Shown piece by piece: positions 1 to 63,128 of a DNA stretch of 64,000 bases (its first letter is position 1; every line of letters begins with the position of its first letter). Both the position numbers and the translations under genes were made by a program. This DNA comes from Chondrilla cf. caribensis. Taxonomy: Eukaryota; Porifera; Demospongiae; Chondrillida; Chondrillidae. Under the pieces are notes generated by a model. It worked only from the letters and a program-made list of their open reading frames with translations, made no database searches and had not been told where the DNA came from. The stretch covers positions 2,656,633-2,720,632 of the forward strand of contig OZ026549.1 of the NCBI GenBank assembly GCA_964020155.1, in the 5' to 3' direction.

Positions 1-98
1 ACAGAGAGGAGTGACCTACAACATCACATTGGTGGCAGTGAACTCAGCTGGAAGGAGTGATACTGGACCAGTTCTGAATTACACACATAACCCACAGA
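1..98 (+). CDS. Receptor A exon: end of second FN3 domain
   Basis: The reading RGVTYNITLVAVNSAGRSD is the F-G strand signature of an FN3 domain. The exon ends at a GTAAGT donor (99-104) in phase 1. It carries a short extension (NYTHNPQ) before the splice site that D and E lack and C also has. Confidence 0.8.
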
Positions 99-1490
99 GT
101 AAGTATCTATCAATGTGTGATGACTTTTTGTCATGGTATAAAGTTATCCATAGCATATTATAGATCATTGTCAAACAACAGCTGATGCACTGTCTAGTCC
201 TTTAAATAATTGATGGAAATAGAAAATAGTCCTTAATTTCATAATCAATGTTAAGCAATTAATATGTACATATACGTGTGACGTCGTTTACATAATATTG
301 TGTGCATAAATGAGCATACATGTGTACATGTATGCATGTGAGTGAAATAGGTCTTCATTGACATTAGTTTTGATTTTAATTGCATTCACACAGTATCCAC
401 TCCTCCACCTACTCAGAACATCACCTCTGGTGAGTCTTTTCATGTGTACATGTATGCATGTGAGTGCAATTTGTCTTCATTGACATTAGTTATGATTTTA
501 ATTGGATTCACACAGTATCCACTCCCTTACCTACTCAGAATAACTCCTCTAATGAGTCATTCAGACCTTTTACTTGTCCTATATGTATGCACATCTTCAA
601 AAATATCATTCTATTGTATACATAATAACATATATAATATATATTAAACCCTCATGATAACATATTTACTGCTATCTTCCTTGAATTTAGCAAATGTAAC
701 GGCTGGTGTCATTGGAGCCATTGCAGCACTACTGATAGTAGTGTCTATCATAGCCGTTATAATAGTGATAGTGATCGTCTGCATAATTATTCGCAACAGA
801 AGAAAAGGAGTACCGGAAGGCAATGGAAAAGCCGACAATGCAGACCATTACTACAGTGTAGCCACTGAAAATGCACAACCTCCTAGAATCCAAGGAGGTA
901 ACAAGAATAACATAATTATGTATGACCAAGTTAAGGGTGGGGGCCTGAATGGTAGTGAAACTTATGAAGATCCTGATGCTGGGGTCAAAGTTACAAATGC
1001 CAAGACATCTGGAAATGACAAACAGAATACAAATACCCCAGGAAAATATTCTAAACTCCAGCAAAATATACCCCAAGAACAACCTCAGCAGGAGAGTATC
1101 CCACCTGAGGGTCATTATGATGTAGCCGATAGCAGACCATACCAAGACAAATATGACATGATTGGCTCAGGAATGTACATCAATTCAGCTGCTGCAAAAA
1201 AAGAAAGTGAAGATGTACCCATAACTCAACCAAACACTAAACGATCAAAAAGTAAGCATCCCGAGGATATTAATGATGGGCAGGATCCTTCCGAGCTTTA
1301 CACCCAACCAAATAAAGCAAGAAAACATAATGAAAAATTGTACGCTAATCATGATCAAGTAGATCCAGAGGAATTGTACACACAACCTGCTAAGAAAAAG
1401 AAGATAAAAAAACCACCGCCATATGTATCTACACGCCAAAATGATGATCCAGAGGCACTCTATACAGCAGTTGATAAAAACAAGAAATGA
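1..1490 (+). CDS. Receptor A (3' part): FN3-linker-TM-tyrosine-rich tail
   Basis: This is the 3' end of a single-pass receptor whose upstream exons lie outside the window. Exons seen are 1-98 (end of the second FN3 domain, donor GTAAGT), 394-429 (linker, 36 nt) and 691-1490 (TM helix plus tail, stop at 1488-1490). All junctions are phase 1. The terminal exon starts with an uncharged helix (GVIGAIAALLIVVSIIAVII...) followed by basic residues and a tail of about 235 residues. Tail tyrosine motifs are YYSV, IMYDQV, YEDP, YSKL, YDVA, YDMI, YIN, two YTQP, PPPY and ALYTAV. Role inferred: surface receptor signalling through SH2 and WW partners. The visible part carries no lesion. It is the paralogue of the 3' ends of D and E. 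Confidence 0.82.
394..429 (+). CDS. Receptor A linker exon
   Basis: This 36-nt exon lies between a CACACAG acceptor and a GTGAGT donor and encodes a Pro/Thr-rich stalk (STPPPTQNITS). The same exon is found at 17740, 44220 and 57252. Confidence 0.75.
516..551 (+). pseudogene. Duplicated linker exon with lost donor
   Basis: This is a second copy of the preceding linker exon together with about 85 bp of flanking intron. The acceptor CACACAG is kept, but the donor position reads ATGAGT instead of GTGAGT. It would keep frame if used, but it is probably skipped. Confidence 0.6.
691..1490 (+). CDS. Receptor A terminal exon: TM and docking tail
   Basis: The acceptor TTTAG is at 686-690. The exon reads ANVTAGVIGAIAAL... 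through the TM helix into a hydrophilic tail rich in Lys, Pro and Tyr, ending DKNKK then stop. It is highly similar to the terminal exons of D and E. Confidence 0.85.
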
Positions 1491-1568
1491 AATAACTAAC
1501 ATATTATATTCAAATGTGTTCCATGCAATTACTTCATTCAGGTATGTAATTCTGTGATACAACTATGT

Positions 1569-1574
1569 AATAAA
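1569..1574 (+). promoter_or_regulatory. Putative polyadenylation signal of receptor A
   Basis: AATAAA lies about 80 nt after the stop codon. The equivalent signal is at 45692 in D, and ATTAAA is at 58294 in E. Confidence 0.5.
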
Positions 1575-1815
1575 TGTTAGTTGCTATTATTCAATTATTC
1601 TTTACAGCTCAGCGTATTATCCACCATTAATTTTGCAAAAGCTAACTTACTGTAGTATTTTTCTAATAATGTGTGTCTAAAATTTCAATCTTTAACACGA
1701 AAATCAATTCTTAAAAGCCAAATATAATGATATAATGTACATAATATATTGAATTCAATTAAAATTAATATGTTTGTTATGAAAAAACAAATTCTACTTT
1801 ATTTAAATAGGATAT

Positions 1816-1977
1816 TGTCGTATAGTAGACGTCAATCATGCACGAATCGATGAACGACCAAAACGAATCTTCACTGCGACCAAAAACACTTCACTACTCA
1901 AGAATTATTAAAGCAACTCAACGGCAATACAGGAAGTAGATGACGTAATAACATAGACAATCAGCCAACATACTACA
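1816..1977 (-). repeat. 3' LTR of the Ty3-type element
   Basis: This is a 162-bp direct repeat of 5908-6069, beginning TGTCGTATAG and ending ACTACA. The two visible differences are aat/aag near the left end and aagt/aact near the right end. Confidence 0.93.
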
Positions 1978-8585: not shown

Positions 8586-8655
8586 ATGAGCTACATCAAA
8601 AGAATCTTTTTGATAAGTACTGTACTCTATATAACAATTACAACTGCCTTTTTAG
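8586..8655 (+). pseudogene. Receptor B signal-peptide exon with mutated donor
   Basis: It encodes the class-1 signal peptide MSYIKRIFLISTVLYIT... as in C and F. The expected CAG|GTGAG is TAG|TTGAG here, so the donor GT is lost. An in-frame stop follows at about 8694. Confidence 0.75.
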
Positions 8656-8750: not shown

Positions 8751-11561
8751 GTGAGTTTGACTTCCAAGCAATCGAACCTAAATTTCGGTGGGATACTTGG
8801 TGAGGCCAGACCAGGATTACTCTGGGAATTCGTCCAAGACAGGGACAGGGAAGAAGGCTCCTCTAGCTGCCTTGCCTATTTACTCCTTCAGTTCTGTTCA
8901 TTCTCATCAATATTATTGCATTATTTCTAGTGATTTGATAAATAACTTGTCCAGCACTTGACATGTGTTTGCAGCCATATCCTCATCTGGTTATACCTAA
9001 CTATAGCTAGGGTAGTGGAACCATATACCGGACACAAAATGGTTCAATATAATAAAGTTGGATAGAGAGCGTATTGAAACTGACTTAAGGCACGTTTAGA
9101 TTGATCTTCTATTCCTTCATTCCAACATATTCTTTGCAGAAATGCCTTCTTTTTCTACAGCCGAGCTAGTGTTTTTTTAACGCAATGTCATTTTCCTTAT
9201 TCCCGGCCATTTTCTCCTGAAGTTGAACAGCGGTCTCGACAGTATTTTAGAAGCTGCAAATCACAACTTAAAGGGGGAAATGTGTCAAACAAAATTAAAC
9301 AGTCTTGGTATACCCAGACAAAGCCTAGAAGATCCTCTTGGTCAGCGCTATGAAGGTTACCATACGGAAGATGTTGTGTCCTGTTGAATGATTTTAATGG
9401 TGCTGTGGCCTGCTTAAGGAGTATTTTCCATCTACCACCATCATTACGGCCTTGTACTGATCGATTTTTCGTGATCACATGTGCCATAAATTGCAATTCA
9501 ACAGAGCTGCACCATTCATTATTACCGTCCGATCACCGACAATTGGTATGAAAATATAGTTTGGATATTCCTCTGTAGCTAGACTCCTTTTACTGACGTA
9601 GGCTTTTGAGTACTTTACAACTAATGCTGGTAATCTTATGTTCACCGCAAATGAATTGGTAACTCAATGCCTATTTGGCAGGTCAAAGAAATATGCATAC
9701 GTCTTAGCTTTGCCTCTTTCTGCAATGTAGTGCGCAATAAAATATGACCATTGCGTTATTCCCTCAATTAGTGTATAGAAACACCAGCGTTTTTCGCAGG
9801 ACAACTGCATTTATTTGAATTAAGATATAGTTCAAGTTCCCACCAAGTATGTTATCGTGTTCAAAAATCTGACTGTTCGATGTTACCAAACATGTTAAAA
9901 AGTGTACGACTATAGGCATTGTCCGGGATATGACGTACCTAGTACCTCTAGCCTATCACTAATAGAATAAGAAGAAGATTGTACGGATGCCGTTTCACGG
10001 CTCCTTCAGTCCACATCAAGTGATTTGTATCATCATCGCAAGCTTAATGCGATGATAAGTATGTAAATACAAGGATATTTTGTGTAATTCAAGAAGGATA
10101 GCTTTGTTTTTCTGTATGCAATGACCTCTACTAGATCTAGATTTATAGTCTAAACATACTCACATACAGACAGTGTCCATTAATAATTCGCATGCCAAGA
10201 CGATCCTCTCACTAACCCGTGTGTAAACAGATGTGCCATGTGCGGTGACCGTCTCTTTGGAAGTTATTTTGATGAAATCGAAATTTATTTTGTTCCACCA
10301 TATCATAGATACTCAAACGCTACTGTACAGTTTTCACGCTCTATGCATAGAGGGCCGGTTTAAGGTCAATATTCTAACCATATCAAACAAGTGCTTTGTG
10401 TATAGAATCTGATACATTGCTTATAGTGAATCGGATATTTTATATTGGCAAAACGTTCAGTATAATAATTTAGAATGCTGACTTAAAGCATGAGCTGTCC
10501 AAGTCCAGAGTGGTAACCGTGTATCTTAAACACAAAGATTGGAGCAAGGGAAATTTGCATTAACATTCTTGACAGAAAACTGTAAACTCAAGTACATACT
10601 GACTGGAAACCACCATTTATGATCATGCAGCATTATCATAGACAATTGCACGATATCAATCAGGATAGTCATATTAATAGATTCTGACATTTGTCATGAT
10701 CACTAACATGGCAAATGAAAATAAAGAAAGTGATTTCATGAAACTACTTGGGTTTGGTTGATGGGACAGGTACAATAGTCATAGATTCTGGTGATCTCCA
10801 TCATGCATGGATTTGAAGTTGGAGATATAATATAAATAATTATACTCTCACATATTTGAAGACCGTATTACATTTCAAGTATCTAAAATTTATACATACA
10901 AGAAATTAGGAACACGTCAGTCTAAGAGTGGTTTAGAAAGATGATGATCAGTGATGGAAGGCAATTTTCTCCCTTCAAGTATTAGATTATGTTTAACTGC
11001 TTGACCTTATTTGCACTTGTATCCCTCATGCACACCATAAGCTTGGATATATGACAAAGCAACTAATATGTGTTAATATAAACACAGCCAATCCATATTT
11101 CTGCATGGGCCTTTGTCAAGGATCAATTGCCACTCAACCTCCCTTGAATATTCACACACATGCATACACACACACACACACACACGCACGCACCCACAAG
11201 CGTGTGTGCACACAAATACGCATGCTGTATGCATGCACTCACACACAGAATCTGTGATATATTATGATGATCAACGACAATTTAGATTAGACTGAAGGAG
11301 CTGAAAAATAAACTTCAATTCAATTGAATACTCACATACCGTTAATTTCTACGTTCTAATTTCAAACCTTAGAATATTGACTGAGCTTTTTGTTTACGTT
11401 AATTAGACTATAGCTACATAAACGTCATGATAACTAAACTGAAAATTGATTCTCTAAAAGTGAAATTCAATGACAACAAAAGAAATTTAAAGTGCTATAA
11501 TGAATCTCTCAATAATTCCCTTCAGTGCTGGTTAGTAAACTTTGTATATTCCAACTCCTAG
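8751..11561 (+). other. Large first intron of receptor B
   Basis: No exon is recognised. About 8760-9560 is paralogous to the first intron of F (63130-64000), and about 10180-11120 to the first intron of C (21590-22600). A CA tract lies at about 11165-11185. A 99-codon minus-strand frame at 9197-9496 is not kept in the F copy. Confidence 0.6.
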
Positions 11562-11872
11562 GTTCCCCTGTGATTACTGTGGTGATTGATGGCTATACAG
11601 TGGGTTCTACTCAGTCCTCACCAGCTTCACTACCACTAGGAACAGCTCTTGTGTTGGTGTGTAGAGTCAGTGGAATACCACAGAGACAGATCAAATATAA
11701 CTGGACATGTCCAGATGGTCCATGTGAATGTCCAGGTTATGTGGGGAGAAAGGTTGTTAACGGCAATATTCTAGCAGTCAATAAAACTTCAGACAGTGAT
11801 GGAGGAACATACACCTGTGAAGTATCAAGAGATGAAGCAGATACAGTCAAAATTATACCCTCAATTATTCAG
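11562..11872 (+). pseudogene. Receptor B Ig exon with 7-nt deletion
   Basis: An Ig domain is clear: LVCRVSG, YNWTCPDGPC and GGTYTCEVSRD. After DEAD, seven nt present in the other copies are missing, so the exon is 311 rather than 318 nt and its end changes from phase 1 to phase 0. It also has an extra Cys (CECPGY instead of CERPGY). Confidence 0.8.
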
Positions 11873-11987
11873 GTTAATACACACAATAATGCATTCATAC
11901 ACCAAAAAATATATGCAAATATATTATATCAAAAACATTAATACTAAATAATGCTAGTGCATGAAATGAATAATTTTATTGTTATAG

Positions 11988-12084
11988 GAGGACATGTGAT
12001 CCACAGTTATGGGAGGCTTGTCCATGATCATAATGTAATCACTAGAGGAGATCAGCTTCTACCACCTGGCAATGGAACAGCCCC
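11988..12084 (+). pseudogene. Receptor B Ig-like exon, 5' part
   Basis: It reads GHVIHSYGRLVHDHNVITRG up to PPGNGTA, then is interrupted by the transposon at 12085. Confidence 0.8.
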
Positions 12085-12590
12085 CACAGGGAATCGAGAA
12101 TATGGAGACCTACAAAAACGGGATCTGGTTTATTTAAATTGACAGTGTGAAAGACGTGTGTATGACTGTTGACTGGAAGACAGTCCAAAAACGTAATGGG
12201 AAGACGTGGGGTAAATATATTCATTAGTTGCTAAATATATTCATAAGCATTATCTCAGTTCGTGGTCAATAACTAATTTGATGATCTCATCTCATGATGT
12301 CCACGTGATGATCAACCACATTGGGCACAATTTCTCCTTTTGAATTTGAAGGGGAGGAAGATTGTAAAGGATCAACAAAGTAGTCAAATTCCTTCCACTA
12401 AAGATAAGTTTCAAGACTATCCTGCTTATTTATTGATTCTAGCTGGTTTATTATGCCTATTTTTCTATCATTTTGTATTTTGAATGTAGGTCAATTTTAA
12501 AAGATCCAGTTTGCTAGCAGAGTTTGTATGCATGAATTACAATGTTACTGTCTGTTATCTTTGACACTCTGTGTGTAAAATGTTGGGTAT

Positions 12591-12740
12591 ACGTGCACTG
12601 AAGGAATCTGGCTACTCAGTTTGCTGGATATACTCTGTGTACGTGCACTGAAGGAATCTGGCTACTCAGTTTGCTGGATATACTCTGTGTACGTGCACTG
12701 AAGGAATCTGGCTACTCCGTTTGCTGGATATACTCTGTGT
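12591..12740 (+). repeat. 50-bp minisatellite, three adjacent copies
   Basis: The unit starts ACGTGCACTGAAGGAATCTG. Copies are at 12591, 12641 and 12691. Further single copies lie at about 12971 and 13208 within a larger repeat of about 237-380 bp that also contains GGCATGGTCGAGTGGCTGAC and a TG tract. Confidence 0.9.
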
Positions 12741-12839
12741 AATGGAACCTGACGGGCATGGTCGAGTGGCTGACCAGTAACTTTGTTACGAGAGTCAGCC
12801 CAGGCTGTAAAGTGCCATTATTAATTCATTTCACTTTTC

Positions 12840-12846
<7 letters not shown>

Positions 12847-12922
<76 letters not shown>
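12847..12922 (+). repeat. (TG)n microsatellite
   Basis: About 38 TG units inside the TIR element. A related GC/TG alternating tract lies at 13128-13159. Confidence 0.95.
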
Positions 12923-12923
<1 letters not shown>

Positions 12924-14302
12924 TATGTTTGTGTGTGAAGTCAACCTTTATACTCACACAATGTTGGGTATACGTGCACTGAAGGAATCTGGCTACTCAT
13001 TTTGCTGGATATACTCTGTGTGATGGAACCTGACAGGCATGGTCGAGTGGCTGACCAGTAACCTTGTTGCGAGAGTCAGCCCAGGCTGTAAAGTGCCAGT
13101 ATTATTTTGTTTCACTTTTCTTCATTTTGCGCGCGCGTGCGCGCGTGTGTGTGTGTGTGGTATGTTTTATGTGAACTCAACCTTTATACTCACATAATGT
13201 TGGGTATACGTGCACTGAAGGAATCTGCTTAGTACTCAGTGTACTGGTTATACTCTGTGTGATGGAGCCTGACGGACGTGGTCGAGTGGCTGACCAATGT
13301 GCATGATGGTGTGTGTGTGTGCATTTGTATATATATCCATGTGATATACAATTAGTATTGTATGTAACTTTGTAGGTTTGCTGGCAGTCAGGAGAAGGCA
13401 GCCAGAAACACCTCAATATGCCAATGTTGTAGGTGGAAGAGGATCGAGAGTAAGTGATCCTGAAGTACAGTTGTGAATGGAACCCAATTGACAGAATGCT
13501 CAACTTTATTGTGCAGCTATGCAGAACAAGGTTTTAAAGCATGAAGTATACATGGGTTATGGTAACACCTTGTACAGCCGATGAGGAATCCAAAGAGGAA
13601 ACGTTTAGTTTACAAATCTATCAAGTAAGCTGCTAAGTTGATCCAGAATTTAATTTAGCTACTGTGATTAGTTTGTCTTTTACTACACAGGACTTGTCAA
13701 CAGCAGCTGCTAAAGAAGTAATCTAGAGAGACTGTCTAAAAGTAGCCAAAAATAGACAGAGATTTGAACCAAGCTGGTGCCAAACAATGGACAACGGTAG
13801 ACACCCATTTAAAAGTAGCTAGAAGAGATTCAACAGAGAAAATCCATGCCAACTCCCTCCAAGGCAAGGTTGAAGGGGCATCCCTAGAAGACAACCTACA
13901 GGTTTAGACATCTTTTTCAGTTTATACCTATCCTTTTTTGAACAAGTTATTTTTTTTCTCACGATTTTCGTAATTTTAACAATGATTTCTAGCTTGTAAC
14001 TTGATCGGTGTGCACGTATAAAAATGATGGGCGTCCTAGATTCCAAATCAGAACGAAACTGGAAGCGGGGAAGCTAACGGCAGACGAGTAGATTTGTTGT
14101 ACAAAGACGTGTGAAATCTCTTCAACTAACCGCCGCGGTTTACAACCGGTTAGCCGGACGTCTGATGTATGTGAGATGGACGTGCGGTTAACGGAAACGG
14201 TCTCCGTGCGAGAGAAAAAACGGTCTTCCCATGGTAATCGTTGTGAAGCGGTAAGCGTTTTCTTAAACAACAAAACGGTTTTCTAATACGCGATTCCCTG
14301 TG

Positions 14303-14526
14303 CCCTGGAATAATGGACTGCATAATAACTGCACCAGAAACTGCTCATTTCATATTTAAAGGTGGCAAAGGTGGCAAGCAACCCAACCATTTATTAGTAA
14401 ATCAAAGTGTTGATGATGGTGATCAAATGGTTACTTTATTCTTCAACCAAGCTTACTTGTCCATGAACACTTTCAATGCAGAGTATTCCTGTCATGATAC
14501 ATATATTCTTTTATATTTATCACCAG
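14303..14526 (+). pseudogene. Receptor B Ig-like exon, 3' part
   Basis: It continues the exon after the transposon: MDCIITAPETAHF, DDGDQMVTLFF and AEYSCHD. It ends at the normal GTAATA donor. Confidence 0.8.
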
Positions 14527-14845
14527 GTAATAACTACTACCAATATATACTAGATATTACTTAGAATGTGAAAGCATTCGACAATTGCAATTACAGTATC
14601 AAGTGTTATCGCCTGATGAGGTCAAACATCAAAGGCACCGCCTGGGCAGTAAATTTGATACTTGCCCGGCGCGCAGGGACAGTATCGCGTAAGCGCCCAG
14701 TTTTTACCTTAAAAGGGCAGTAATTGCAAGGTGTTATATAAGCTATTACAATTTTGCGCATTCCAAGAAATGAATATCATTATAGCAAAAAGGCGACACA
14801 ACACTAGTACAGTAGAGCATCAGCAACTGAAATTTAAAGTAAAAG

Positions 14846-15609: not shown

Positions 15610-15656
15610 AAATATTAATTCTGATGCTCAATTATTCTTTTATCACTTCCTGACAG

Positions 15657-15961
15657 GTACATTACCCAAAGTCACTATCATCATGAGGGCTGTGACAAAC
15701 ACCACTGATGTAAGGATATAATAGTCCTCAATGATATTCCCTTATATAGTGGCAGAACCATTGTAGGATATAAACGTCATGACCTTGGAGTGACACTGCA
15801 GGGAGAGTATGCAAATATTGTCAGACGCACAGAGCATACGTTCTCATCACTAGTCCCAGGTGCTAGGTGCACAGTAGTAGTGCAGGGACTCCATGCATCT
15901 GCGAATGGAGGTCAAAGAAGTCAGCATATCACAAGGGGAGATTTCAAAACTGAAGTGAAAG
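15657..15961 (+). pseudogene. Receptor B FN3-1 exon with frameshift
   Basis: The acceptor is TGACAG and the donor AAAG|GTCAGG. After NTTDVR, an insertion relative to D and E gives TAA TAG in frame. The downstream part (GVTLQGEYANIV, SSLVPGARCTVVVQG) is open in the shifted frame. Confidence 0.75.
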
Positions 15962-17010: not shown

Positions 17011-17150
17011 CATACTACATTATGTGCACAAACACATGTACACACACCATCACAATATAAATCACACAATTAATATCACAGTGATTAGTGAGAAAAACTC
17101 TTAACTCTGTATATTATAATACATATATTTATTGCTTTCTATGAATTCAG

Positions 17151-17412
17151 AACCATCTGCTCCAAGGTATCCCTGTACAATTGGAGATGATACAGATGGA
17201 ATTGAACTAAACTGGATACCTCCACTAGAACCCAACGGAAATGTCTACTATCTCATTGAATATAATGATGGAATTAATACTGCTTCAGTAAATACCTTGA
17301 GTGAGTCTACCTACTTCCATTTAACAGGACTACAAAGAGGAGTGACTTACAACATCACAGTGGTGGCAGTGAACTCAGCAGGAAGGAGTGATACTGGACC
17401 AGTTCTGAAGGA
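17151..17412 (+). pseudogene. Receptor B FN3-2 exon, one nt too long
   Basis: It reads EPSAPRYPCTIGDD, ELNWIPPLEPNG and GVTYNITVVAVNSAG, a clear FN3 domain. Length is 262 nt against 261 in D and E; the end CTGAAGGA|GTAAGT is phase 2 and would send the linker exon out of frame. Confidence 0.75.
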
Positions 17413-17894: not shown

Positions 17895-18346
17895 CAAATG
17901 TAACAGCTGGTGTTATTGGAGTTATTGCAGTCCTACTGATAGTAGTGTCTGCAATAGCAGTTATAATAGTGATAGTGATCTTCTGCATAATCAAGTGCAA
18001 CAGACTAAAAGGCGTACCGGAAGGCAATGGAGAAGCTGACAATACAGAACATTACTACAGTGTAGCCACCGAAATTGCACTAACACAACCTCCTGGAATC
18101 CCAGGAGAAGAAGTCTATCAAGAATTGGATGTTAGCAAGATGGATGATGATGTGATGACCAACAAAAACTATCAAAAAATGAATGTCAGAACAATGGATC
18201 CGTTGAATTATGTAGTGATGAACAAAAGAGGCTATCTAGGATTGGATGCCAGCAAAAGGGATGATGATGGTATTTACAGCAAAGATTATGAAGAATTGGA
18301 CCCCATAATGCTGGACGAAACCACCAACTATGCATCATTGAAGTGA
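17895..18346 (+). CDS. Receptor B terminal exon: TM and YxxL/M-repeat tail
   Basis: This open exon of about 150 codons reads ANVTAGVIGVIAVLL... through the TM helix. It shares HYYSVATE with the other tails and then diverges completely. The remainder is a run of units starting with Tyr: YQEL, YQKM, YVVM, YLGL, YEEL, YASL, with acidic spacers (for example DVSKMDDD and DASKRDDD). YEEL and YASL are 10 residues apart, close to ITAM spacing. The exon itself is undamaged. Confidence 0.8.
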
Positions 18347-20998: not shown

Positions 20999-21068
20999 AT
21001 GAGCTATATCAAAAGAATCTTTTTGATAAGTACTGTACTCTATATAACAATTACAACTGCCTTTTCAG
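20999..21068 (+). CDS. Receptor C signal-peptide exon
   Basis: 70 nt, MSYIKRIFLISTVLYIT... ending TAFS plus one base, donor GTGAGT. A typical cleavable signal: basic start, hydrophobic core, small residues before the splice. Confidence 0.8.
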
Positions 21069-41184: not shown

Positions 41185-41299
41185 GTAATACCTACTACTA
41201 ATACTAGGTATTACAATATGAAAGCATTCAACAATTGCAATTGCAACAGCATAAAGTGATATTTTAATGCTTTACAATTGTTTTATCACTCCCTGACAG

Positions 41300-41614
41300 G
41301 TACATTACCCAATGTCACTATCGTGGAGACTGTGTCAAACACCACTGATGTAAGAATAGTCCTCAATGATATTCCCTACAATGATATTCCCTCAGACAAT
41401 ATTGGTAGAGTCATTGTAGGATATGAACGTCATGACCTTGGAGTGACACTGCAGGGAGAGTATGCAAATATTTTCAGATGTGCACAGCATACATTCTCAT
41501 CACTAGTCCCAGGTGCTAGGTACACAGTAGTAGTGCAGGGACTGACTGGAGGTGCGGGTGGAGGTCAATGAAGTCAGCATGTCACAAGAAGAGATGTCCA
41601 AACTGAAGAGAAAG
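41300..41614 (+). pseudogene. Receptor D FN3-1 exon with nonsense codon
   Basis: 315 nt as in E. TGA at 41569-41571 after GGAGGGQ. The rest of the domain is normal. Confidence 0.8.
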
Positions 41615-43270: not shown

Positions 43271-43638
43271 TTTACCCCCCTTGAGATACCTCATACAATT
43301 ATTTAAAACACATCAGATATCTGTAGGTTTTAGGAAACAGACTTTCTGGGATGAATATATCCCACAATACACTCATACTACAAATGTGTGCACAAATACA
43401 AATACTCACACACCATCACAATATAAATCACACAAATATTATCACAGTGATTACTTGATAAGAGAAAAATCCTAATTCTATATAATATATTTTTGTACAT
43501 CTGTAATGTATGCATGGTATAGGGCCGCCATGTTTTTTTCGTGTCATCTCTACATTATATAATAATAATGAAGGGATGACGCCTATGATACATAATGTTT
43601 GTACATATACATGTATCTATTGCTTTCTATGAATTCAG

Positions 43639-43899
43639 AACCTTCAGCTCCAAGGTATCCCAGTATAATTGGAGAGGATACAGATGGAATTGAACTCAAC
43701 TGGATACCTCCACTAGAACCCAATGGAGATGTCTACTATCTCATTGAATATAATGATGGAATTAATAATGTTTCAGTAAATACCTCGAGTGAGTCTACTT
43801 ACTTGAATTTAACAGGACGACAGAGAGGAGTGTCCTACAACATCACAGTGATGGCAGTGAACTCAGCAGGAAGGAGTGATACTGGACCAGTTCTACAGA
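43639..43899 (+). CDS. Receptor D FN3-2 exon
   Basis: 261 nt. EPSAPRYPSIIGEDTDG, ELNWIPPLEPNGDVYYLIEY, YNITVMAVNSAGRSD; donor GTAAGT. Confidence 0.85.
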
Positions 43900-44219: not shown

Positions 44220-44255
44220 TATCCACTCCTCCAACTACTCAGAATAACCCATCTG
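44220..44255 (+). CDS. Receptor D linker exon
   Basis: 36 nt, STPPTTQNNPS, donor GTGAGT. Confidence 0.75.
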
Positions 44256-44797: not shown

Positions 44798-45606
44798 CAA
44801 ATGTAACAGCTGGTGTCATTGGAGCCATTGCAGTCCTACTGATAGTAGTGTCTGCCATAGCGATTATAATAGTGATAGTGATCATCTGCATAATCAAGTG
44901 CAACAGAAGAAAAGGAGGACCAAAAGGCAATGGGAAGATCGACAAAACAGAACATTACTACAGTTTAACCACTGAAAATACACATTGTCAACCTCCTAGA
45001 ATCCAAGGAGGTTACAAGAATGACATGATTGTGTATGAACAAGTTGAGGGAGGGGGCCTGAATGGTACTGACACTTATGAAGATCCTGATGCTGGGGTCA
45101 AAGTTACAAATGCCAAGACGTCTGGAAATGGTAAAAAAAATACAAATATCCCAGGAAAATATTCTAAACTACAGCAAAACATACCCCAAGAACCACCTCA
45201 GAAGGAGAGTATCCCATCTGAGGGTCATTATGATGTAGCTGATAGCAGACCATACCAAGGCAAATATGACATGATCGGCTCAGGAATGTACGTCAATTCA
45301 GCTACAGCTAAAAAAGAAAGTGAAGATGTACCCATAACTCAACCAAACACTAAACCATCAAAAAGCAAACATCCTGAGGATATTAATGATGAAATGCCCA
45401 AGAAAGGGAGCGATCCTTCTGAGCTTCACACTCAGCCAGATAAAGTGAGGAAACATAATGAAGAATTGTACGTTAATCATGATCAAGTTGATCCAGAGGA
45501 TTTGGACACACAACCTGCCAAGAAAAAGAAGATAAAAAAACCACCACCATATGCATCTAGACACAAAAGTGATGACCCAGAGGCACTCTATATATACTGC
45601 AGTTGA
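44798..45606 (+). CDS. Receptor D terminal exon: TM and docking tail
   Basis: The TM helix and tail match A and E: IVYEQV, YEDP, YSKL, YDVA, YDMI, YVN, PPPY. One YTQP is changed to LHTQP and another to LDTQP. A 4-nt insertion near 45590 changes the last residues to LYIYCS. Confidence 0.8.
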
Positions 45607-45691
45607 TAAAGTCGAGAAAAGGAAAAAATAACATATGTTCAAATGTGTCCCATGCAATTACTTCATTCAGGTATGTAATCCTATGATATGT

Positions 45692-46025: not shown

Positions 46026-46029
<4 letters not shown>

Positions 46030-51744: not shown

Positions 51745-51814
51745 ATGGAGAACATTGGAAAAGTCTACTTGATGAGTATTCTACTCTGTATCATTTCTTC
51801 AGCTGCCATTTCAG
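51745..51814 (+). CDS. Receptor E signal-peptide exon (class 2)
   Basis: MENIGKVYLMSILLCIISS... ending AAIS plus one base; 70 nt; donor GTGATT. Start chosen by match with D and by exact phase agreement with the Ig exon. Confidence 0.78.
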
Positions 51815-54800
51815 GTGATTTCAAGTTTCTTGTCAGAATTAATATCAACACTAACAGTTAGTCTAACAGTTTGAGGTACACAAAATAGCCGGTATAGGGT
51901 TACTGTATTGTGTGGCATTGATCTATTCACAGTTCCTATACGAATGTCGTTTCACGTGGCCGTCGGTAAAATTGAATGTAACCAGTTTAGTGTGACATTC
52001 ATACGTTTGGTGTACAGACCAAACAATATTAATACAAGGAGAGTTTGATCCCACGATTATTTCATCATAGCGTCGTTAAGGTAAACGGGCCTTATTTCGA
52101 GCAGTGCCTAATTCCCAACAGTTGGTCTCTCGCCGTATTATTTTCACACCAGGTATGACACAGCATTCTTTGGTCTACTCATTGACCGGATTAGGTGGAA
52201 AATCGACATGTTCGGAATTAACGACTGTTTGAAATTACCACCGCCTTTTTAAAACTATACGTTTAGGCAATGACACCCACATTCCAGTACGAGATAATGC
52301 AGTGCACAGGTACAGACCGAGTTCATCTTTACGTATGCCGTAAGAGTTGTCCCCTCACTCACCTACATGATATACGGCTGTACTGGGTATAGTGGCCGTC
52401 GTCTTATCGATTATTACGATGAAATCGAAGGGCGATTTCGCTCCATCTCGTGTACACCACAGTGGTTTCCTCTATTGTCTATGGTTTCACCAGATCGCAC
52501 CATTATGTAGATGACACGTGCTACATCATGTCATGTGCGCGTGACGTTCATGCAAGTTCAAAGTGCAATTGGTACTGTAATGTAGGATGTTATTTCACAC
52601 TCTATAATAGGGCGTATGGGCGTTATCAATTACATTGTACACTCTCAACTGAGCTATTAGCAGCCTGTCCATAAATCCGTCATACACACTGGCTCAAAAT
52701 CCTACAGTCTACAGCCAAGATTGCAATCAGTTGCAGGTATCCCATCTTTTAAACTCACGATGAGCTTTAAATGGTCACCCAGACCACTACTACCATCCTA
52801 ACCGTATTTGTATTCACAATTATCTTTCAATATATTTTATATTCAAACTCACATCTTGCCAGGTTTAAGTACACAAACATTATCAGATTCTGTTTGCTTT
52901 GTTTTTACACCTGTGTCCAAGAGTTACATATTATGTATATGTGATGTTTGAATAATAAAGCATTTCTCCCCCCTCTATATATCATGGAATAGTCTAGTTA
53001 CAATAGCTAGACCATCCCTATCAGGTACCTGTGGTGGAGTGGGGGAGGGATGGTCTAGCAAAACAAATGATTGTTTGCCACCTAAACTTTAACACCTACA
53101 GGGTATGACTTTCGAGCAATCAATAGTTGATAATAATCAAAACAATGAATAATAATCAAAGTGGGGATAGGGTCGGGAGGCATCAATATTATAGGTACAT
53201 GTCAGTAAGCAGATAAGGATATGCAAAAAATTGCAGAATTAATCTTTACCTCATCAAAAGTTAAGCATAAATATCTCAAAGAAATTATGAATTTCTTCCA
53301 TAAAGGTTGATAAATTGCTGAGTAACTTGACTAAACTGCTCAATAGCCATGTTTGCTTGTCTGTTAATCACGACAGTGAAGACAGTATGAGGACAGAAGA
53401 TCAGTACATTCTTGGTCTCCATATTAATATTTGGCAGTACTGTTTTGACTATAGTGGACTTGCCATGTCCATTTGGTTGGCAAACTATTATTGAATCATT
53501 CCCCAAAAATAGGTCCGTGATAGCAGAGATCTGTTCTGCAGATCTAGAAAACACATAACAATTGAGATGTCTGCACTTGATTTTACATTAGGCATATAAA
53601 GCAGGCTGCCCATACTCTCATGTGTGATGTGTACTACACTAGATTATTTTCTGTTCTCTCCTTATGATAAATTTAGACAAGATCCATACATCATCATCAC
53701 AATAGGCTGTTCTTAGGGTAATCAGTAGGGATTTCATTGAAAAGCAAATGGCAACTACATTACAGTATATTAATGATTAACATTGGGTATTGAATTCCGA
53801 ATGTTTGCAGTGGTCCCATGTATGGTACATAACACAAGATGTGGGGTCATCAAGTATTAGTGCTATACATGACACAACCAAATACATACATGTCAATAAA
53901 TCCTTACTGCAATTAGATATACAGTCATTTTACAGGCATGAATTTCGATGTGTAATATTACTATCGATATGGGTGCAAAACACGGTATGGTATGGAATGT
54001 AACAATATTATTACTGAATCAAAATTAATAAGGATTCATATGTGATAAGTGTAACAAACTGCATCTACCAACGTCAAATCCAATGAAAATATAATGAACA
54101 TGCTGTAACCAAACTATTAATGCTTAATTCACTGTTTGTAATGTACATTTTTCCCCCTAGGCTCCCCTGAGGTAACTGTGGTGGTTGATGGCTACACAGT
54201 TGACTCCACTCAGTCCTCACCAGCTTCACTTCCACTAGGAACAGCTCTTGTGTTGGTGTGTAGAGTCAGTGGAATACCACAGAGAAAGATCAAATATAGC
54301 TGGACATGTCCAGATGGTCCATGTGAACGTCCAGGATATGTGGGGAGAAAAGTTGTTAACGGCAACATTCTAGCAGTCAATATAACCTCTCAGGGTGATG
54401 GAGGAACATATACTTGTGATGTATCAAGAGATGAGGCAGATGGGAAATACAGCCAAAATTATACCCTCAATGTTTCAGGTCAATACACACCACAAACATG
54501 CGGCAAAAATAAGTGGTGAAATTCTGTTTTCACAGTCCTCAGGTATTGACAGTTTCACTATGATTTATATGTGAACTGTTTTGGAAAATAACAGGAAACA
54601 CACAATTCTTGGTATGTCAAAAACACAAACTTGGAGAGTTATTCATCTCCCCAAATTTTGGACATATCCAAATATATGGTATGCCAAAAACCCACATTTG
54701 GAGAGCTAGTCATCTCCCGAAATTTGGGACATAAGCAAAACAAGCAACATTCATGTAAGATCAGAAGATTCTCTGGGAATACACATGTTACATACCCAAG

Positions 54801-57800
54801 CCAACTTTGATCATAAGTAGGTTGTTATTCAGGTGCTCAGAAACTGGAATTTCTTCAAAACATGTCTCAACATGATTATCACCTCCGTAAATTTCCACTG
54901 TTTCAAGGGAGAATTGGCATGAACATGTATATTTACTGTTCAAACCTAATAAAAATGAGGAAACAGCTGAATTCAAAGTTTGGGGTTTAATCAGAATTTA
55001 ACTATCTAATTCAGAACATGTTAACATGCATTCATGCACAAAGATATTATATGCACATGATGAAAACATTTTCATACTTAGTGCATGAAATGAATATTAT
55101 TATTGTTATAGGAGGACATGTTATCCACAGTTATGGGAGGCTGATCCACGTACTTAATGTAATCACTAGAGGAGATCTGCTTCTACCACCTGGTGATACA
55201 ACAGGGCCTGGAAGAATGGACTGCATAAGAACAGCACCAGAAACTGCTCGTTTTCGACTTGAAGGTGGTGAACAACCCAACAATTTAGTAAATCAAAGTG
55301 TTGAAGATGGTGATCAAATGGCTACTTTATTCTTCAACCGAGCTTACTTGTCAATGAACAATTTCATTGCAGAGTATTCCTGTCATGATACATATATCCT
55401 TTTCTATTTAACATCAGGTAATAACTACTTCTAATGCTAGATATTACTTACAATATGATAACATTCAACAATTGCAATTACAGCATCAAGGGATATTCTA
55501 ATGCTTTACAATTGTTTTATCACTCGCTGACAGGTACATTACCTAATGTCTCTATCATGAGGACTGTGACAAACACCACTGATGTAAGAATAGTCCTCAA
55601 CGATATTCCCTCAAGTGATATTCCCACAGATACAATTGGTAGAGTCATTGTAGGATATGAACGTCATGACCTTGGAGTGACACTGCAGGGAGAGTATGCA
55701 AATATTTTCAGACGTACAGAGCGCACATTTTCATCACTAGTCCCAGGTGCTAGGTACACAGTAGTAGTGCAGGGAGTGACTACATCTGTGACTGGACGTC
55801 AAAGAAGTCAGCATGTCACTAGGAGAGATTTCATAACTAAAGTGAAAGGTCAGGGTAATATCACATTTCACTTGAACATATTTATCTCATACTAGGTGGT
55901 GCATAATGAGTCTAATTTGGACTGAGTTACAATTGTTCTGCGCTACAGTTGTTGGAATGAGGGCATGACACCATTATTTATTACTTTCCAACATAGTTTT
56001 ATTGAGCATTTGTGCTGGACTTCTCTTCGTATGCCCCTTTAGCCCCCACACACCACAACAAAGTACTGAACTGAAATATAGAACAAAATAACATGGATAA
56101 ACATCCAATTATACTTGCAATTGCACATTAATTATGCATACATATCTATGGGTATATTATAATTATTATAAAATTATACATACATACATATACGTAATAG
56201 CACAACATTTACCTAACCATCTGTATTATGTACACGAAAATCTTATTTCGGGTGGAGGTAAGGCCACATTTGCCTTCTGTTCAGAGAAATTCCCCCCCCC
56301 CCCTTTCTGGAGATTCTATATTTACCTCCCTTGAGATACCTCATACAATTATTCAGAACACATCATATATCTGTAAGTTTTAGGGAACAGATCTCCTGGG
56401 ATGAATATATCCCACAATACACATACTACAAATGTGCGCACAAATACACGTACACACACCATCACAATATAAATTACACAAATAATATCACAGTGATTAC
56501 TTAACAACACTTTATTACATACGTACACACATACTACAATAAACGTACACACGCCATAACAATGATAAATAACACAAATGATATCACTGTGATTACTTGA
56601 TAAGAGGAACAGTCATAACTCTATATATAATATTTGTACGTATACATGTATTCATTGCTTTCTATGAATTCAGAACCTTCAGCTCCAAGGTATCCCTGTA
56701 TAATTGGAGATGATATAGATGGAATTGAATTAAACTGGATACCTCCACTGGAACCCAACGGAGATGTCAACTATCTCATTGAATATACTGATGGAATTAA
56801 TACTGCTTCAGTAAATACCTCCAGTGAGTCTACTTACTTCAAGTTAACAGGACTACAGAGAGGAGTGACCTACAACATCACAGTGGTGGCAGTGAACTCA
56901 GCTGGAAGGAGTGATACTGGACCAGTTCTATGGAGTAAGTATATTAATATGTAATAACTTGATTGTCAGCTGTCATGGTATATAGTTCAAGTGTCAAACA
57001 ACAACTCGTGTACAGTATATAGCAGTACTTACATAATTGATGGCAGAAGTGAATAGTCCTTAATTAAAGTAGCAATCAATTATATTATGTTGCAATGTGC
57101 AGACATGGCTTACTAGACAGTTGAAATTGGTGTGATATCATTTTCATAATTTTATGTGAGAATATATGTGCATATATATGTGTACATGTATGCATGTGAG
57201 TGCAATAGGTCTTCATTGACATTAGTTTTAATTTTACTTGTATTCACACAGTATCCATTCCTCCTCAGAATAACCCATCTGGTGAGTCTTTCATATCTTT
57301 TACTTGTCCTATGTATGAATATCCTCAATTATATCATTCTATTGTATATTACATTATATAATATAAAACCCTTGTGATAATATATTTACTGCTATCTTCC
57401 TCAAATTTAGCTGGTGTCATTGGAGCCATTGCAGTCCTACTTATAGTAGTGATGGTCATAGCAGTTATAATAGTGATAGTGATCTTCTGCATAATCAAGC
57501 GCAACAAACGAAAAGGAGTACCGGAAGGCAATGGAAAAGGCAACAATACAGACCATTACTACAGTGTAGCCACTGAAAATGTACAACCTCCTAGAATCCA
57601 AGGAGTTCACAAGAATGACATGATTGTGTATGACCAAGTTGAGAGTGGAGGCCTGAATGGTAAGGACACTTATGAAGATCCTGATGCTGGGGTCAAAGTT
57701 CACAACAAAGTCACAACTGCTAAGACATCTGGGAATGGCAAGCAAACTACAAATATCCCAGGAAAATATTCTAAACTACAGAAAAACGTACCTCAAGAAC

Positions 57801-58228
57801 CTCAGTTGGAGAGCACTGCACCTGAGGGTCATTATGATGTAGCCGATAGCAGACCATACCAAGACAAATATGACATGATCGGCTCAGGAATGTACGTCAA
57901 TTCAGCTGCAGCAAAAAAAGGAAGTGAAGATGTACCCATGACTCAGCCAAACACTAAACCATCAAAAAGTAAGCATCCCGAGGATAATAATGATGAAATG
58001 CTCAAGAAAGGGAACGATCCTTCCGAGCTTTACACCCAACCAAATAAAGAGAGGAAACATGAAGAATTGAACGTTAATCATGATCAAGTTGATCCAGAGG
58101 AATTGTACACACAACCCGCCAAGAAAAAGAAGATTAAAAAACCACCACCATATGCATCTAGACACAAAGGTGATGATCCAGAGGCACTGTATACTGCAGT
58201 TGATAAAGACAAGAAAAGGAAAAAATAA
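51745..58228 (+). CDS. Receptor E: intact Ig-Ig-like-FN3-FN3-TM receptor with tyrosine-rich tail
   Basis: Seven exons: 51745-51814, 54161-54478, 55112-55417, 55534-55848, 56674-56934, 57252-57281, 57411-58228. Together they make 2118 nt, 705 residues plus stop, all GT-AG and phase 1. Domains: signal peptide 1-23; Ig 24-129; Ig-like 130-231; FN3 232-336 and 337-423; stalk 424-433; TM about 436-462; tail 463-705. Tail motifs: Y483 YYSV, Y507 in IVYDQV (fits the ITIM consensus), Y521 YEDP, Y553 YSKL, Y575 YDVA, Y587 YDMI, Y595 YVN (Grb2-type), Y641 and Y666 YTQP (Crk/Nck-type), PPPY 678-681 (WW ligand), Y694 YTAV. Inferred to act at the plasma membrane as a recognition or adhesion receptor recruiting SH2 proteins. 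The ligand is unknown. The TM has no charged residue, so partnering through TM charges is not expected. The only intact full-length copy here. Confidence 0.87.
51815..54160 (+). other. First intron of receptor E
   Basis: Paralogous to the intron of D, with an extra segment (about 52980-53640) holding a helicase-like fragment. It contains short conserved islands such as GTGGTCCCATGTATGGTA. Confidence 0.6.
53285..53554 (-). pseudogene. RecQ-like helicase N-terminal fragment
   Basis: 89 codons. SAEQISAITDLFLGNDSIIV followed by a P-loop-like CQPNGHGKST and VLIFCPHTV resembles motifs 0 and I of RecQ-type helicases (usual P-loop GxGKS). The rest of the helicase is absent. Antisense within the intron and missing from D, so an inserted fragment. 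Confidence 0.5.
54161..54478 (+). CDS. Receptor E Ig exon
   Basis: 318 nt. LVCRVSG, YSWTCPDGPC, GGTYTCDVSRD, ending YTLNVS plus one base. The intra-loop C-x4-C adds a likely second disulfide. Confidence 0.9.
54590..54735 (+). repeat. Tandem imperfect palindromes in an intron of E
   Basis: The module TTTGGAGAG...CTCCC(C/G)AAATTT, able to form a hairpin, occurs twice in E and once in D (about 40466-40500). Confidence 0.65.
55112..55417 (+). CDS. Receptor E second (Ig-like) domain exon
   Basis: 306 nt. GHVIHSYGRLIHVLNVITRG, GRMDCIRTAPETARF, DGDQMATLFFNRAYLS, FIAEYSCHDTYILFY. The Cys pair (MDC and EYSC) about 60 residues apart, with Y-x-C before the last strand, points to an Ig fold without the usual Trp. 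I do not recognise the family beyond that. Confidence 0.8.
55534..55848 (+). CDS. Receptor E first FN3 exon
   Basis: 315 nt. TLPNVSIMRTVTNTTDVRIV, IVGYERHDLGVTLQGEYA, FSSLVPGARYTVVVQGV, a typical FN3 layout with the conserved L-x-P-G-x-x-Y turn; donor AAAG|GTCAGG. Confidence 0.82.
56674..56934 (+). CDS. Receptor E second FN3 exon
   Basis: 261 nt. EPSAPRYPCIIGDD, ELNWIPPLEPNGDVNYLIEY, LTGLQRGVTYNITVVAVNSA; classical FN3 with the core Trp and the NS-x-G turn. Confidence 0.88.
57252..57281 (+). CDS. Receptor E linker exon
   Basis: 30 nt, six shorter than in A, B and D; SIPPQNNPS. Confidence 0.72.
57411..58228 (+). CDS. Receptor E terminal exon: TM and docking tail
   Basis: The acceptor is TTTAG. 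AGVIGAIAVLLIVVMVIAVI... is the TM helix, then a basic stop-transfer (KRNKRK). The tail carries the tyrosine motifs listed for the gene and ends DKDKKRKK. Confidence 0.87.
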
Positions 58229-60306: not shown

Positions 60307-62105
60307 AGTCCAGATCTTCCCAATTGTGTAATATTGGAATATTGTAATACAGTGAATTCTCGTTAATCTGCCGCAATAATTGATAATTGTGTGACTGAGT
60401 ACTATAATGTGACATATGGTCATGAGAGCCACTACTCACATTACTGACATTATACACAGCCAAAATAGTAGTATCTATATTATACACACACAACAAATGA
60501 AATATAGGACAGTATCCAAGTACAAGAACAACAGATGTTCAGTCTGCTGAGTGCAATGTACTTCCTGGGCATGGATGATTACAATGTAAATGGAGATTGA
60601 TGGAATTTGTTAGCAAGTAAGAATATCATCAGGATCCAAACATGATAACAAATTGAATTTAAAAATTAGAAAATAATAGCTACAGAATAAAATGATTATA
60701 TGTATTATTGCCAAAAAGATAATTATAATTTTGCACACATCAACATGACTGTTGCAGCACATTGCAATGACTGCGAATCAACATAAAAGTGAACACTGAA
60801 ACCCATATTAATTTTGCTGTACGTAATGTCGTACAATAAACCCATAGCAATGTTACTGTTCATATGAATGTTGTATAGACGCTGATTGACATTTATAGCA
60901 ACATAATAACACTGCTTTGCATATAAGAGTGATTATAGGATAGTAAGAAGGACCTTTTTGCATTGAATAATTAAAACTACTTTCGATAGCCTAACATCAC
61001 TAACAATAACCCAGTTCCTATTCGGTTTCTATTATCTAACAAATTTACCATCACAAATTTATTGTATAATGCACTAGGGTGTGAAGCAACTGAGGGGTGA
61101 GCAAAATAAATTGGTCTTCTAATAGAATCAAATGTTACTACTACATTTAAATGGGAAATGATACACACACTACAGAAGGTGGTCATTTTCAGTCTGATAA
61201 CAGTATGGTGAATTCAAACTAGAGGTCACAAACTTGAAAACGAACCCTAGAGAAAACATCATGTAGCTTGGGTAAACAATGATTTGGAACAGTCCATATA
61301 CAGCAACTACTATGGACTGGCGTCCATATCTGAGTCAAATTGGTTCAAACCACGAGCCATCTCTTCTCTCAACTTAATTGCACCCAATGGCATTTCACCC
61401 GTTCAAAGCTTCGCCTTTGACAATTAGATATACATAGAAGTATATTAATATTTGTCAAAAGGTTACCTGCCTAGATACTATAATAAATACAATTAATTTC
61501 AATAAAATCAAACATGTACAACTGTACTTGACACTACATTAGGCAGAGTTCTTACAGGAAACACAGTGACTACACGTGTCTCTACAGAGACTGTTCCAAT
61601 CACAGTCAATATCTATGGAATTAATACCCACCTCCACCGAAGGAAGGAAGTAGCCAGACAAATTAAACAAACTATTACTACTAACAATAATAATAATAAC
61701 AATATTATTGGTTACCAGTGTTAAATAGATAATATCTCAAATCTTAATACTTCGGAGGATTATGCTTGTTTACATTGGGATTGAAGAATACAGATTAGAG
61801 TGCCTTGTCTGCTTTCACTATTAAGGAGGGGAGCATGTAGCACAATCTGCCACATTTCACTCACATTTTATGTTGTTTTCTGCCTAATCTCATCACTAAT
61901 CATTGTATTTTTTCTCTGGAAAGGCTCATATTACAAAATGGTTTTCATGGATATGAAGAAAGTATCAATGCAAATTCGGGGCTATCATTTATTGCAATGA
62001 AGACATGAACGCTATTGGTACATCAGTCAAAACGAATGCTAAACATTAAACCATTTTGATTGCATGTGTACGTACTCTATTATGATTAATATACTGTGAT
62101 TTCTC

Positions 62106-62144
62106 TATATCAACTAACATGACTTGATCATGTTAGTTGATATA
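62106..62144. repeat. Perfect 17-bp inverted repeat
   Basis: TATATCAACTAACATGA, five-base spacer, then its exact reverse complement. No adjacent gene explains it. Confidence 0.9.
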
Positions 62145-62459
62145 ATATTATGGAAATACAATAATTATAAGCATAAACATATAGTGGGGTAGGTTTGACA
62201 GGAAAGTGTGCGCGGCACTATTATAGGATTAGATGATGAATTGCATGTACCACCACATGTGGTATGTGAAAACAATACAAAATCATTGGTTGATTATATT
62301 CAACTATGATTGAGTTCTACAATTTTGTACCGGTAGTGACTCTATTGTACTCCTATCCCGATTTGTAGTGAAAAAGTCATTATAATATATAAAATGCAAT
62401 GTAACAATGAGATAGTTATACTAATAAACCTTCTAGAATCACCTGAAATGAACAATTAT

Positions 62460-63058
62460 ATTACAGATGAATGGCTTCAGAACTTGACCTTCATGAGCAT
62501 TCAAGCATAAACAACATGTTTACTCATTTGAGGTAATTATTGTGGCTTCTGAGCTTCCTGCCCTATTGCATACTGTACATGGTATATTATTCCAAATTTT
62601 ACCTTTGTATATATTTTTTTCATTAGTATACATTTTGTACATGTTAATAATCGTAGGTGGCAATAACCCATTGTGAAATTTGCAGTAACTGTTGGATATA
62701 ATCCACAAATATTGCTCACCAGACACATGCATGTGGTGGATAAGCAATTGATGAAAACTACCAATGATATTGTATTATAATCACCACTATTTTCACAGTA
62801 CTTGTAGAATCAGGTAGGGTTCAGACTATCCAGATGGAATTAATCAGAGCATCGTGCAGATATCACATGATGAAATCCTTGATAAGTCAGTAACTTAGTA
62901 CTTCCTGTGACCATAGAAGTGTTTGGGCTATAAGAAAAGGAAACATTTCTATGGCCAGAGGAAGTATTAACTGACCAATAGGCCTTCAGTGGACTTATAT
63001 GTATCCTGAAAACACACTCTAACAAAATTCAAGTGCTACCAGATGAAATATTGGGAAG
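62460..63058 (+). promoter_or_regulatory. Class-1 upstream region of receptor F
   Basis: Highly similar to the regions upstream of B and C. A TATA-like TATAAG lies at 62929-62934, 130 bp before the start codon. Confidence 0.5.
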
Positions 63059-63128
63059 ATGAGCTACATCAAAAGAATCTTTTTGATAAGTATTGTACTC
63101 TATATAACAATTACAACTGCCTTTTCAG
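63059..63128 (+). CDS. Receptor F signal-peptide exon (gene continues outside the window)
   Basis: 70 nt, MSYIKRIFLISIVLYIT... ending TAFS plus one base; donor GTGAGT. One residue differs from C (Ile for Thr). Downstream exons would lie beyond 64000, judging by the 1.6 to 3 kb first introns of the other copies. Confidence 0.75.

Follow-up and report, generated by a model that had tools for sequence, protein, structure and literature searches.

We describe a stretch of 64,000 nucleotides from the sponge Chondrilla cf. caribensis, located at C4:2656633-2720632 (forward strand; C4 is contig OZ026549.1) and hereafter called the window. The window lies within a large tandem array of genes for predicted surface receptors with immunoglobulin (Ig) and fibronectin type III (FN3) domains. 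The genes share one exon layout and end in two kinds of tail, which carry nearly exclusive tyrosine motifs in two separate sets of arrays. The exons for two outer domains, Ig2 and Fn1, are mixed across the tail kinds, the tails are under purifying selection and Fn1 shows diversifying change. We consider it probable, at roughly two chances in three, that the family consists of paired recognition receptors of activating and inhibitory type. A preliminary description of the window had proposed a tandem array of surface receptors with Ig and FN3 domains and tyrosine-motif tails; this was borne out by six units, which belong to a larger array on C4. The two tail kinds, the exchange of outer exons between them and the diversifying selection on Fn1 go beyond that description.

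A receptor array with a conserved exon layout

Searches covered one genome assembly of 137 Mb in 37 contigs, and all copy counts of the first Ig exon (Ig1) are lower bounds. Genome-wide at least 150 Ig1 exons were found (best 150 of 220 candidates scored). The main array, which holds the window, spans about 2.416 to 3.237 Mb on C4 (~0.82 Mb). It contains at least 59 Ig1 exons (C4:2415836-3232772), 59/59 on the + strand and 79-100% identical to that of unit E of the window. Only one of these 59 matches contains a stop; three others are partial. Sister Ig1 matches, with 53-64% identity to unit E, number at least 87 elsewhere on C4 and at least 4 on C2. On C4 they are on the + strand in 27/27 cases at 0.32-0.50 Mb and in 7/7 at 4.15-4.21 Mb, and on the - strand in 43/43 at 0.57-0.85 Mb and in 8/8 at 4.45-4.50 Mb; lone + strand matches are found at 3.73 and 4.56 Mb, one each. 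The first ten Ig1 exons of the main array (2.416-2.472 Mb) form five pairs with members 2-3 kb apart. One segment there (C4:2412500-2422499, L045) holds two copies of Ig1-Ig2-Fn1-Fn2 inside about 4 kb, and the paired exons may belong to genes with two ectodomains, as read from one pair.

The genes are laid out as signal, Ig1, Ig2, Fn1, Fn2, linker and transmembrane (TM) segment plus tail. Unit E is complete and open, with seven exons and a predicted spliced product of 705 amino acids. Its introns are in phase 1 throughout and its five inner exons are multiples of three. Exons were collected from 61 merged C4 segments (263,682 bases, window included), a chosen part of the main array, which gave 49 Ig1, 53 Ig2, 49 Fn1 and 37 Fn2 matches. 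Near-full matches were analysed (46 Ig1, 44 Ig2, 43 Fn1, 31 Fn2) and the remainder dropped. An AG acceptor is present in 42/42 Ig1, 47/47 Ig2, 45/45 Fn1 and 30/30 Fn2 exons; only exons matched from position 1 of the profile onward were scored. GT follows Ig1 in 47/47 exons scored, one of them (3211995) from a match ending three residues early. Three proteins from elsewhere carry modules joined in this order without introns: P0001 (457 amino acids, longest contig 1,511 bases) is joined through to Fn2, P0002 (A0AA96MNW2 of the demosponge Halisarca dujardinii) runs from signal to tail in one protein, and P0074 joins Ig1 and Ig2. These three probably derive from mRNA. In P0003-P0006, P0013 and others the short Ig1-Ig2 intron is read through, and these look like genome-predicted frames. 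Chance or artefact as the origin of the layout is ruled out by conserved frames, splice acceptors and purifying selection.

On unit E, Pfam finds Ig_3 in Ig1, which places an Ig domain of the Immunoglobulin superfamily in the receptor, fn3 in Fn2 and a sub-threshold fn3 in Fn1. Ig2 has no Pfam match, and sequence profiles give no link between Ig2 and Ig1. In the predicted Ig1-Ig2 model of P0074 the Ig1 part is usable and the Ig2 part is not; the latter is mostly strands at low confidence, and the fold lists hold no clear relative of Ig2, a negative that carries no weight. A whole-ectodomain model of P0001 was discarded (predicted local distance difference test score 44.6).

Among the protein matches listed is a homologue, A0AA96MNW2, with the same module order and 40% identity over 58% of E. 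The preliminary description knew of no family with this layout; the databases do hold this one protein, under the name 'Insulin-like protein receptor'. It is the only organism-named match among the protein matches listed; the searches scored a best-candidate list, and further relatives are possible. Like the array genes it has a TM segment and a long tail, here with LYAEVDK-type repeats. Unlike them it is a single deposited protein, and its ectodomain is closer to the sister arrays (Ig1 74.7% identical to that of the sister gene at C4:386500-394000, L042). Between Fn2 and the membrane span, the same sister gene carries one Sushi repeat above the cut-off and a second just below it. An Ig1-Ig2 profile matched 532 proteins at E 1e-5, and the 120 listed lie nearly all on ENA contigs of up to megabases. 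This suggests a large family in other assemblies, probably of sponges.

Two tail kinds and exchanged outer exons

In the main array 21 long (L), 9 short S and 20 short S' tails were found, fragments excluded. The S tail has the TM segment and juxtamembrane part of L, followed by an S'-like tail. Two motifs were counted: a strict immunoreceptor tyrosine-based inhibitory motif (ITIM), [SIVL]xYxx[ILV], and a motif like the immunoreceptor tyrosine-based activation motif (ITAM), Yxx[LI]x6-12Yxx[LI]. In this array 18/21 L, 8/9 S and 6/20 S' tails were used. Strict ITIMs of the IVYDQV type occur in 15/18 L tails (shuffled 0.27) and the ITAM-like motif in 0/18. The short tails carry the ITAM-like motif in 12 of 14 cases (S 7/8, shuffled 0.05; S' 5/6, shuffled 0.01) and a strict-ITIM string in 2/8 S and 0/6 S'. 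The sister arrays repeat this pattern. There, 17 of 18 long matches were used and 23 of the 44 short ones (64 short-tail matches in all, 20 of them in the main array). ITIMs are found in 17/17 sister long tails (VLYSTL, LLYAEV and others; shuffled 0.17), which hold the ITAM-like motif in 0/17; the sister short tails hold the ITAM-like motif in 19/23 and an ITIM in 0/23. When both sets are pooled, the ITAM-like motif is present in 0/35 long vs 31/37 short tails, and the strict-ITIM string in 2/37 short tails. The ITAM-like spacing is x10 in 18/23 sister short tails and also in the printed strings of the window array.

Tyrosine columns of the L tails have a conservation of 0.944 compared with 0.883 for the average column (57/2000 random sets as high), and long tails additionally hold YxxP and PPxY motifs. 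The tails of the main array evolve under purifying selection, with dN/dS (ratio of nonsynonymous to synonymous change) values of 0.49 (16 L), 0.57 (6 S) and 0.48 (6 S'). In the sister region (0.3-0.85 Mb) two blocks that differ in tail kind converge: between 329 and 444 kb there are 19 short tails, each on the + strand, and between 672 and 826 kb 17 long tails, each on the - strand. A single additional short tail sits at 537 kb, on the - strand.

Had the tail kinds been old separate lineages, the outer exons would be expected to sort by tail. Tail changes were counted on exon trees, after dropping rows without an assigned tail (rows used: Ig1 40/46, Ig2 38/44, Fn1 38/43, Fn2 29/31). For long vs short tails, the Fn1 tree has 13 changes vs a shuffled mean of 13.0 (294/500 shuffles as low) and the Ig2 tree 12 vs 12.9 (190/500). 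Three tail states give 15 changes vs 16.2 in the Fn1 tree (155/500). The distribution of Ig2 and Fn1 exons across the tail kinds thus looks random. One cluster holds members whose ectodomains are similar and whose tails are of opposite type: an S gene (3015651) and an L gene (3232452) are 93.3% identical from Ig1 to Fn1 over 1159 columns, introns included, and 76.5% identical from Fn2 up to the point where the tail exon begins, beyond which the alignment ends.

The units have two types of signal exon (A, B) and at least three tail types. The six same-strand paralogues of the preliminary description are all present; the 'identical exon modules' ascribed to them do not hold in view of these types. 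In the 38 units whose signal, Ig1 and tail lie no more than 9 kb apart, signal type A is accompanied by 11 short and 0 L tails and type B by 8 short and 19 L tails (Fisher p 1.3e-4). For this count 21/59 Ig1 units without some part were dropped, the first ten (2.416-2.472 Mb) among them, and the signal matches used were 17/23 of type A (the rest partial or overlapping type B) and 33/33 of type B. A strict one-to-one link between signal type and tail type, hinted at by the first genes, was rejected on the 8 short tails that go with type B.

The outer exons differ in divergence. Mean identity is 0.849 for Ig1, 0.689 for Ig2, 0.743 for Fn1 and 0.829 for Fn2, with dN/dS of 0.53, 0.88, 0.88 and 0.47, respectively. 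In a held-out test, in which variable columns were picked in one half of the genes, mean dN/dS in the other half exceeded 1 for all four exons. Such ratios are not proof, since the choice of columns is biased and values of 1.5-2.1 arise when neutral change is simulated on the same trees. For Ig1, Ig2 and Fn2, positive selection was rejected, as neutral simulation equalled or exceeded the observed value in 6, 10 and 22 of 25 runs. In the most variable Fn1 columns dN/dS is 2.79 vs a neutral 1.48 (standard deviation 0.34), a value reached in 0/25 and then 0/150 simulations, and in 0/75 under a null with a quarter of sites neutral. Fn1, alone of the four exons, hence shows diversifying change beyond neutral simulation. 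Eleven of its 16 most variable residues fall in three patches, at E positions 34-38, 56-64 and 83-90. In the usual FN3 strand order these patches would correspond to the BC, C'E and FG loops, which share one pole of the domain. At Ig1 codons 21-45 synonymous divergence is about 0.06 vs 0.09-0.27 in other Ig1 stretches, as would fit local homogenisation or a constraint on the DNA.

Several observations weigh against the paired-receptor reading. Ig1 sorts with tail kind (8 changes vs 13.5; 2/500 as low), Fn2 does so weakly (6 vs 7.9; 44/500), and Ig2 is borderline with three tail states (14 vs 16.2; 53/500). Proximity was the sole basis for pairing signals, exons and tails. The tails are interrelated and their motif counts are not independent, and shuffled long tails of the window array carry a strict ITIM in 27% of draws. 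One of the two S tails with a strict-ITIM string also has the ITAM-like motif. The canonical ITAM spacing of 6-8 occurs in 0/23 sister short tails, and for this reason the motif is named 'ITAM-like' only. Ig2 variation exceeds a null with a quarter of sites neutral (0/30) but is not above fully neutral simulation (30/60), and the simulations ignore recombination. Searches of the genome for SH2 and kinase domains identified no Syk-type kinase, and in the window copies B, C and D are broken to differing degrees.

Signalling, ligands and competing explanations

Under the paired-receptor reading, each gene would encode one type I surface receptor in which a signal and Ig1 are followed by a further small domain (Ig2), a pair of FN3-type domains, the membrane span and the tail. 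The direction of signalling is suggested by the tail motifs. In long-tailed receptors the ITIM-type sites would be phosphorylated and recruit an SH2-SH2 phosphatase, leading to inhibition; in short-tailed receptors the double Yxx[LI] would be phosphorylated and recruit SH2 proteins, leading to activation. Outer exons would have been duplicated and swapped between the tail kinds, so that identical or similar ligands could be read by both kinds, and the response would depend on the balance of long- and short-tailed receptors.

Candidate partners are encoded in the same genome. Matches in the order SH2, SH2, phosphatase lie on the - strand at C12:4916877-4909822 and C12:4680625-4672051; this is an order of matches, not of gene models. 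It is the order of SHP-type phosphatases, which makes these loci possible partners. The order SH2-SH2-kinase is found on C15; a Syk homologue was not called there, since the kinases there score ~130-150 bits and the top-scoring tyrosine-kinase-like frames >300. Expanded signalling genes, in the form of rows of frames for SH2 and kinase domains, were also seen at C14 1.55-1.63 and 2.02-2.13 Mb and at C15 4.25-4.39 Mb.

Sponges tell self from foreign tissue. Vertebrate killer cells make this distinction with receptors that have outer parts in common and a tail of either stop or go type. According to excerpted accounts, the vertebrate paired receptors KIR, LILR and NITR resemble the array in that activating and inhibitory members lie in gene clusters. 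Their activating members rely for the most part on the ITAMs of adaptors, whereas in the sponge array the ITAM-like motif sits in the receptor's own tail. As a further difference, searches of solved structures with the array sequences mainly matched Ig and FN3 domains from proteins of adhesion and muscle. Hydractinia Alr is another system of clustered Ig-superfamily receptors in an early animal, for which the passages cited give 41 genes with V-set and I-set domains (PMC11999971) and ITAM and ITIM motifs (PMC12065747). It belongs to another phylum and differs from the Ig1-Ig2-FN3-FN3 layout of the sponge array, the two being compared by description, not sequence. The Botryllus fuhc locus, as cited, likewise is one large locus and has a receptor family (fester family, FcoR) with ITIM and hemITAM, tied to allorecognition (PMC12065747). 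It is from a tunicate, has other domains and was studied in living animals, whereas the sponge array is known from sequence alone. A 2025 review sees allorecognition from cnidarians to mammals converging on ITIM/ITAM signalling and, in the passages cited, names no sponge receptor of that kind (PMC12065747). The reviews cited attribute Ig proteins of adhesion type, as well as aggregation factors, to sponges (PMC11999971, PMC12018476). Aggregation factors and Geodia Ig proteins are, by these accounts, sponge adhesion, Ig-domain or histocompatibility molecules; compared by description and not by sequence, the aggregation factors differ in being extracellular proteoglycans and the Geodia RTK in having a kinase, per its title. 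No sponge ITIM/ITAM or Ig/FN3 receptor array was found in the open-licence literature searched, subscription papers being outside its scope. With exon boundaries, tail kinds and candidate sites of selection defined, a paired-type family of at least 150 Ig1 exons opens self-recognition in sponges to tests of whether long and short members share ligands and give opposite signals, and whether they differ between mutually rejecting individuals.

As to the ligand, the array may tentatively be viewed as supplying the receptors of a self/non-self locus in sponges, a chromosome-scale repertoire whose ITIM and ITAM-like members share exchanged, fast-evolving ectodomains. If this is true, paired stop/go recognition would predate the divergence of sponges and other animals, or would have arisen independently in sponges. 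About equally likely, and equally short of an even chance, the same receptors would bind microbial ligands of pathogens or symbionts and form an innate recognition repertoire, not one for self-recognition; the two views differ in the ligand and share the paired-receptor reading. Array size, diversifying change in Fn1 and decay of single copies fit an arms race, and the Sushi repeats of one sister gene point the same way; nothing microbe-specific was found in the analysis.

It is unlikely that the genes encode receptors for adhesion or tissue patterning of the NCAM/Dscam kind, with tails of ordinary signalling and a number that reflects duplication rather than the recognition of non-self. Ig1 does resemble the Ig domains of NCAM, contactin and titin, Fn2 scores against the FN3 domains of titin and DCC, and the long tails have YxxP and PPxY motifs as well. 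However, opposed tail motifs in two separate array sets, the mixing of Ig2 and Fn1 across tail kinds and Fn1 change beyond neutral argue against such receptors. Less probable again is an array made up largely of neutral or decaying tandem copies of a single ancestral receptor, with inherited, meaningless motifs. The broken copies B, C and D and the transposon frames between units would fit such decay, but the near absence of stops from main-array Ig1, the purifying selection on the tails and the retained splice acceptors speak against it. Insulin-like receptors, suggested by the record name of A0AA96MNW2 and by the weak score of Fn1 against the FN3 of insulin receptors (E ~0.03-0.05), have next to no probability and were rejected on domains: the insulin receptor family has L domains, a furin-like region and a tyrosine kinase, the Pfam scan of P0002 at E 0.01 gave Ig and fn3 families and a sub-threshold PKD, and no kinase, L or furin-like family was found at this threshold either in P0002 or in a scan of spliced E that covered little of its tail, so that the domains of A0AA96MNW2 do not support its label.

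Units and neighbouring elements of the window

The six units, all on the + strand, were located by mapping the exons of unit E across the window. Over 94-107 residues, the Ig1 domains of B, C and D share 84-93% identity with that of E, and the units are therefore not due to chance. The birth and decay of copies proposed in the preliminary description is evident here, with E complete and B, C and D broken. Unit E comprises a type B signal exon (51745..51814), Ig1 (54161..54478), Ig2 (55112..55417, a putative fold), Fn1 (55534..55848), Fn2 (56674..56934), a linker exon (57252..57281) and TM plus long tail (57411..58228) with the ITIM IVYDQV, YxxP repeats, PPPY and a stop.

Unit A enters the window with the end of its Fn2 exon (2..118), followed by a linker exon (394..429, both ends placed by comparison with E; another linker-like stretch lies at ~516-551) and an open TM plus long tail with its stop (702..1490). 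Its Ig1, Ig2 and Fn1 sit just upstream of the window and are open (L058). Unit B has a type A signal exon with an altered splice donor (8586..8651; partial second copy 8702-8752), Ig1 with a disturbed end (11561..11842), Ig2 in two pieces (11987..14528, as 11987-12085 and 14292-14528), a frame-broken Fn1 (15653..15954), Fn2 (17150..17407) and TM plus short S tail with ITAM-like YEEL-x10-YASL (17906..18346). Unit C consists of a type A signal exon (20999..21068, end by analogy), Ig1 (22668..22988) and Ig2, Fn1 and Fn2 with the frame broken in each (23093..24249); no tail was found for it. In unit D, a type B signal exon (37788..37857, end by analogy), Ig1 (40008..40328) and Ig2 (40874..41185) are followed by Fn1 with one stop codon (41299..41607), Fn2 (43638..43895), a linker exon (44220..44255, ends by analogy with E) and TM plus long tail with a frame shift at the very end (44809..45628). 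Unit F begins with a type A signal exon (63059..63128); the remainder lies past the window end (L039), and its TM exon is disturbed.

Other frames lie between the units, on the - strand. Adjoining unit A, window positions 2006-5996 hold frames for gag, aspartic protease, RNase H and integrase of a long terminal repeat retrotransposon, which we take to be Ty3-like. A frame with a QRICH1 domain (14849-15394) is located between Ig2 and Fn1 of unit B. Downstream of the decayed unit C, a sub-threshold tyrosine-recombinase-like frame adjoins reverse-transcriptase frames (25348-28088), presumably of a DIRS-like element; GC content is 0.48 at 24-32 kb. A further reverse-transcriptase frame and an adjoining frame of 433 amino acids without Pfam match follow at 30650-33784, the latter containing 60-base repeats at 33056-33536.

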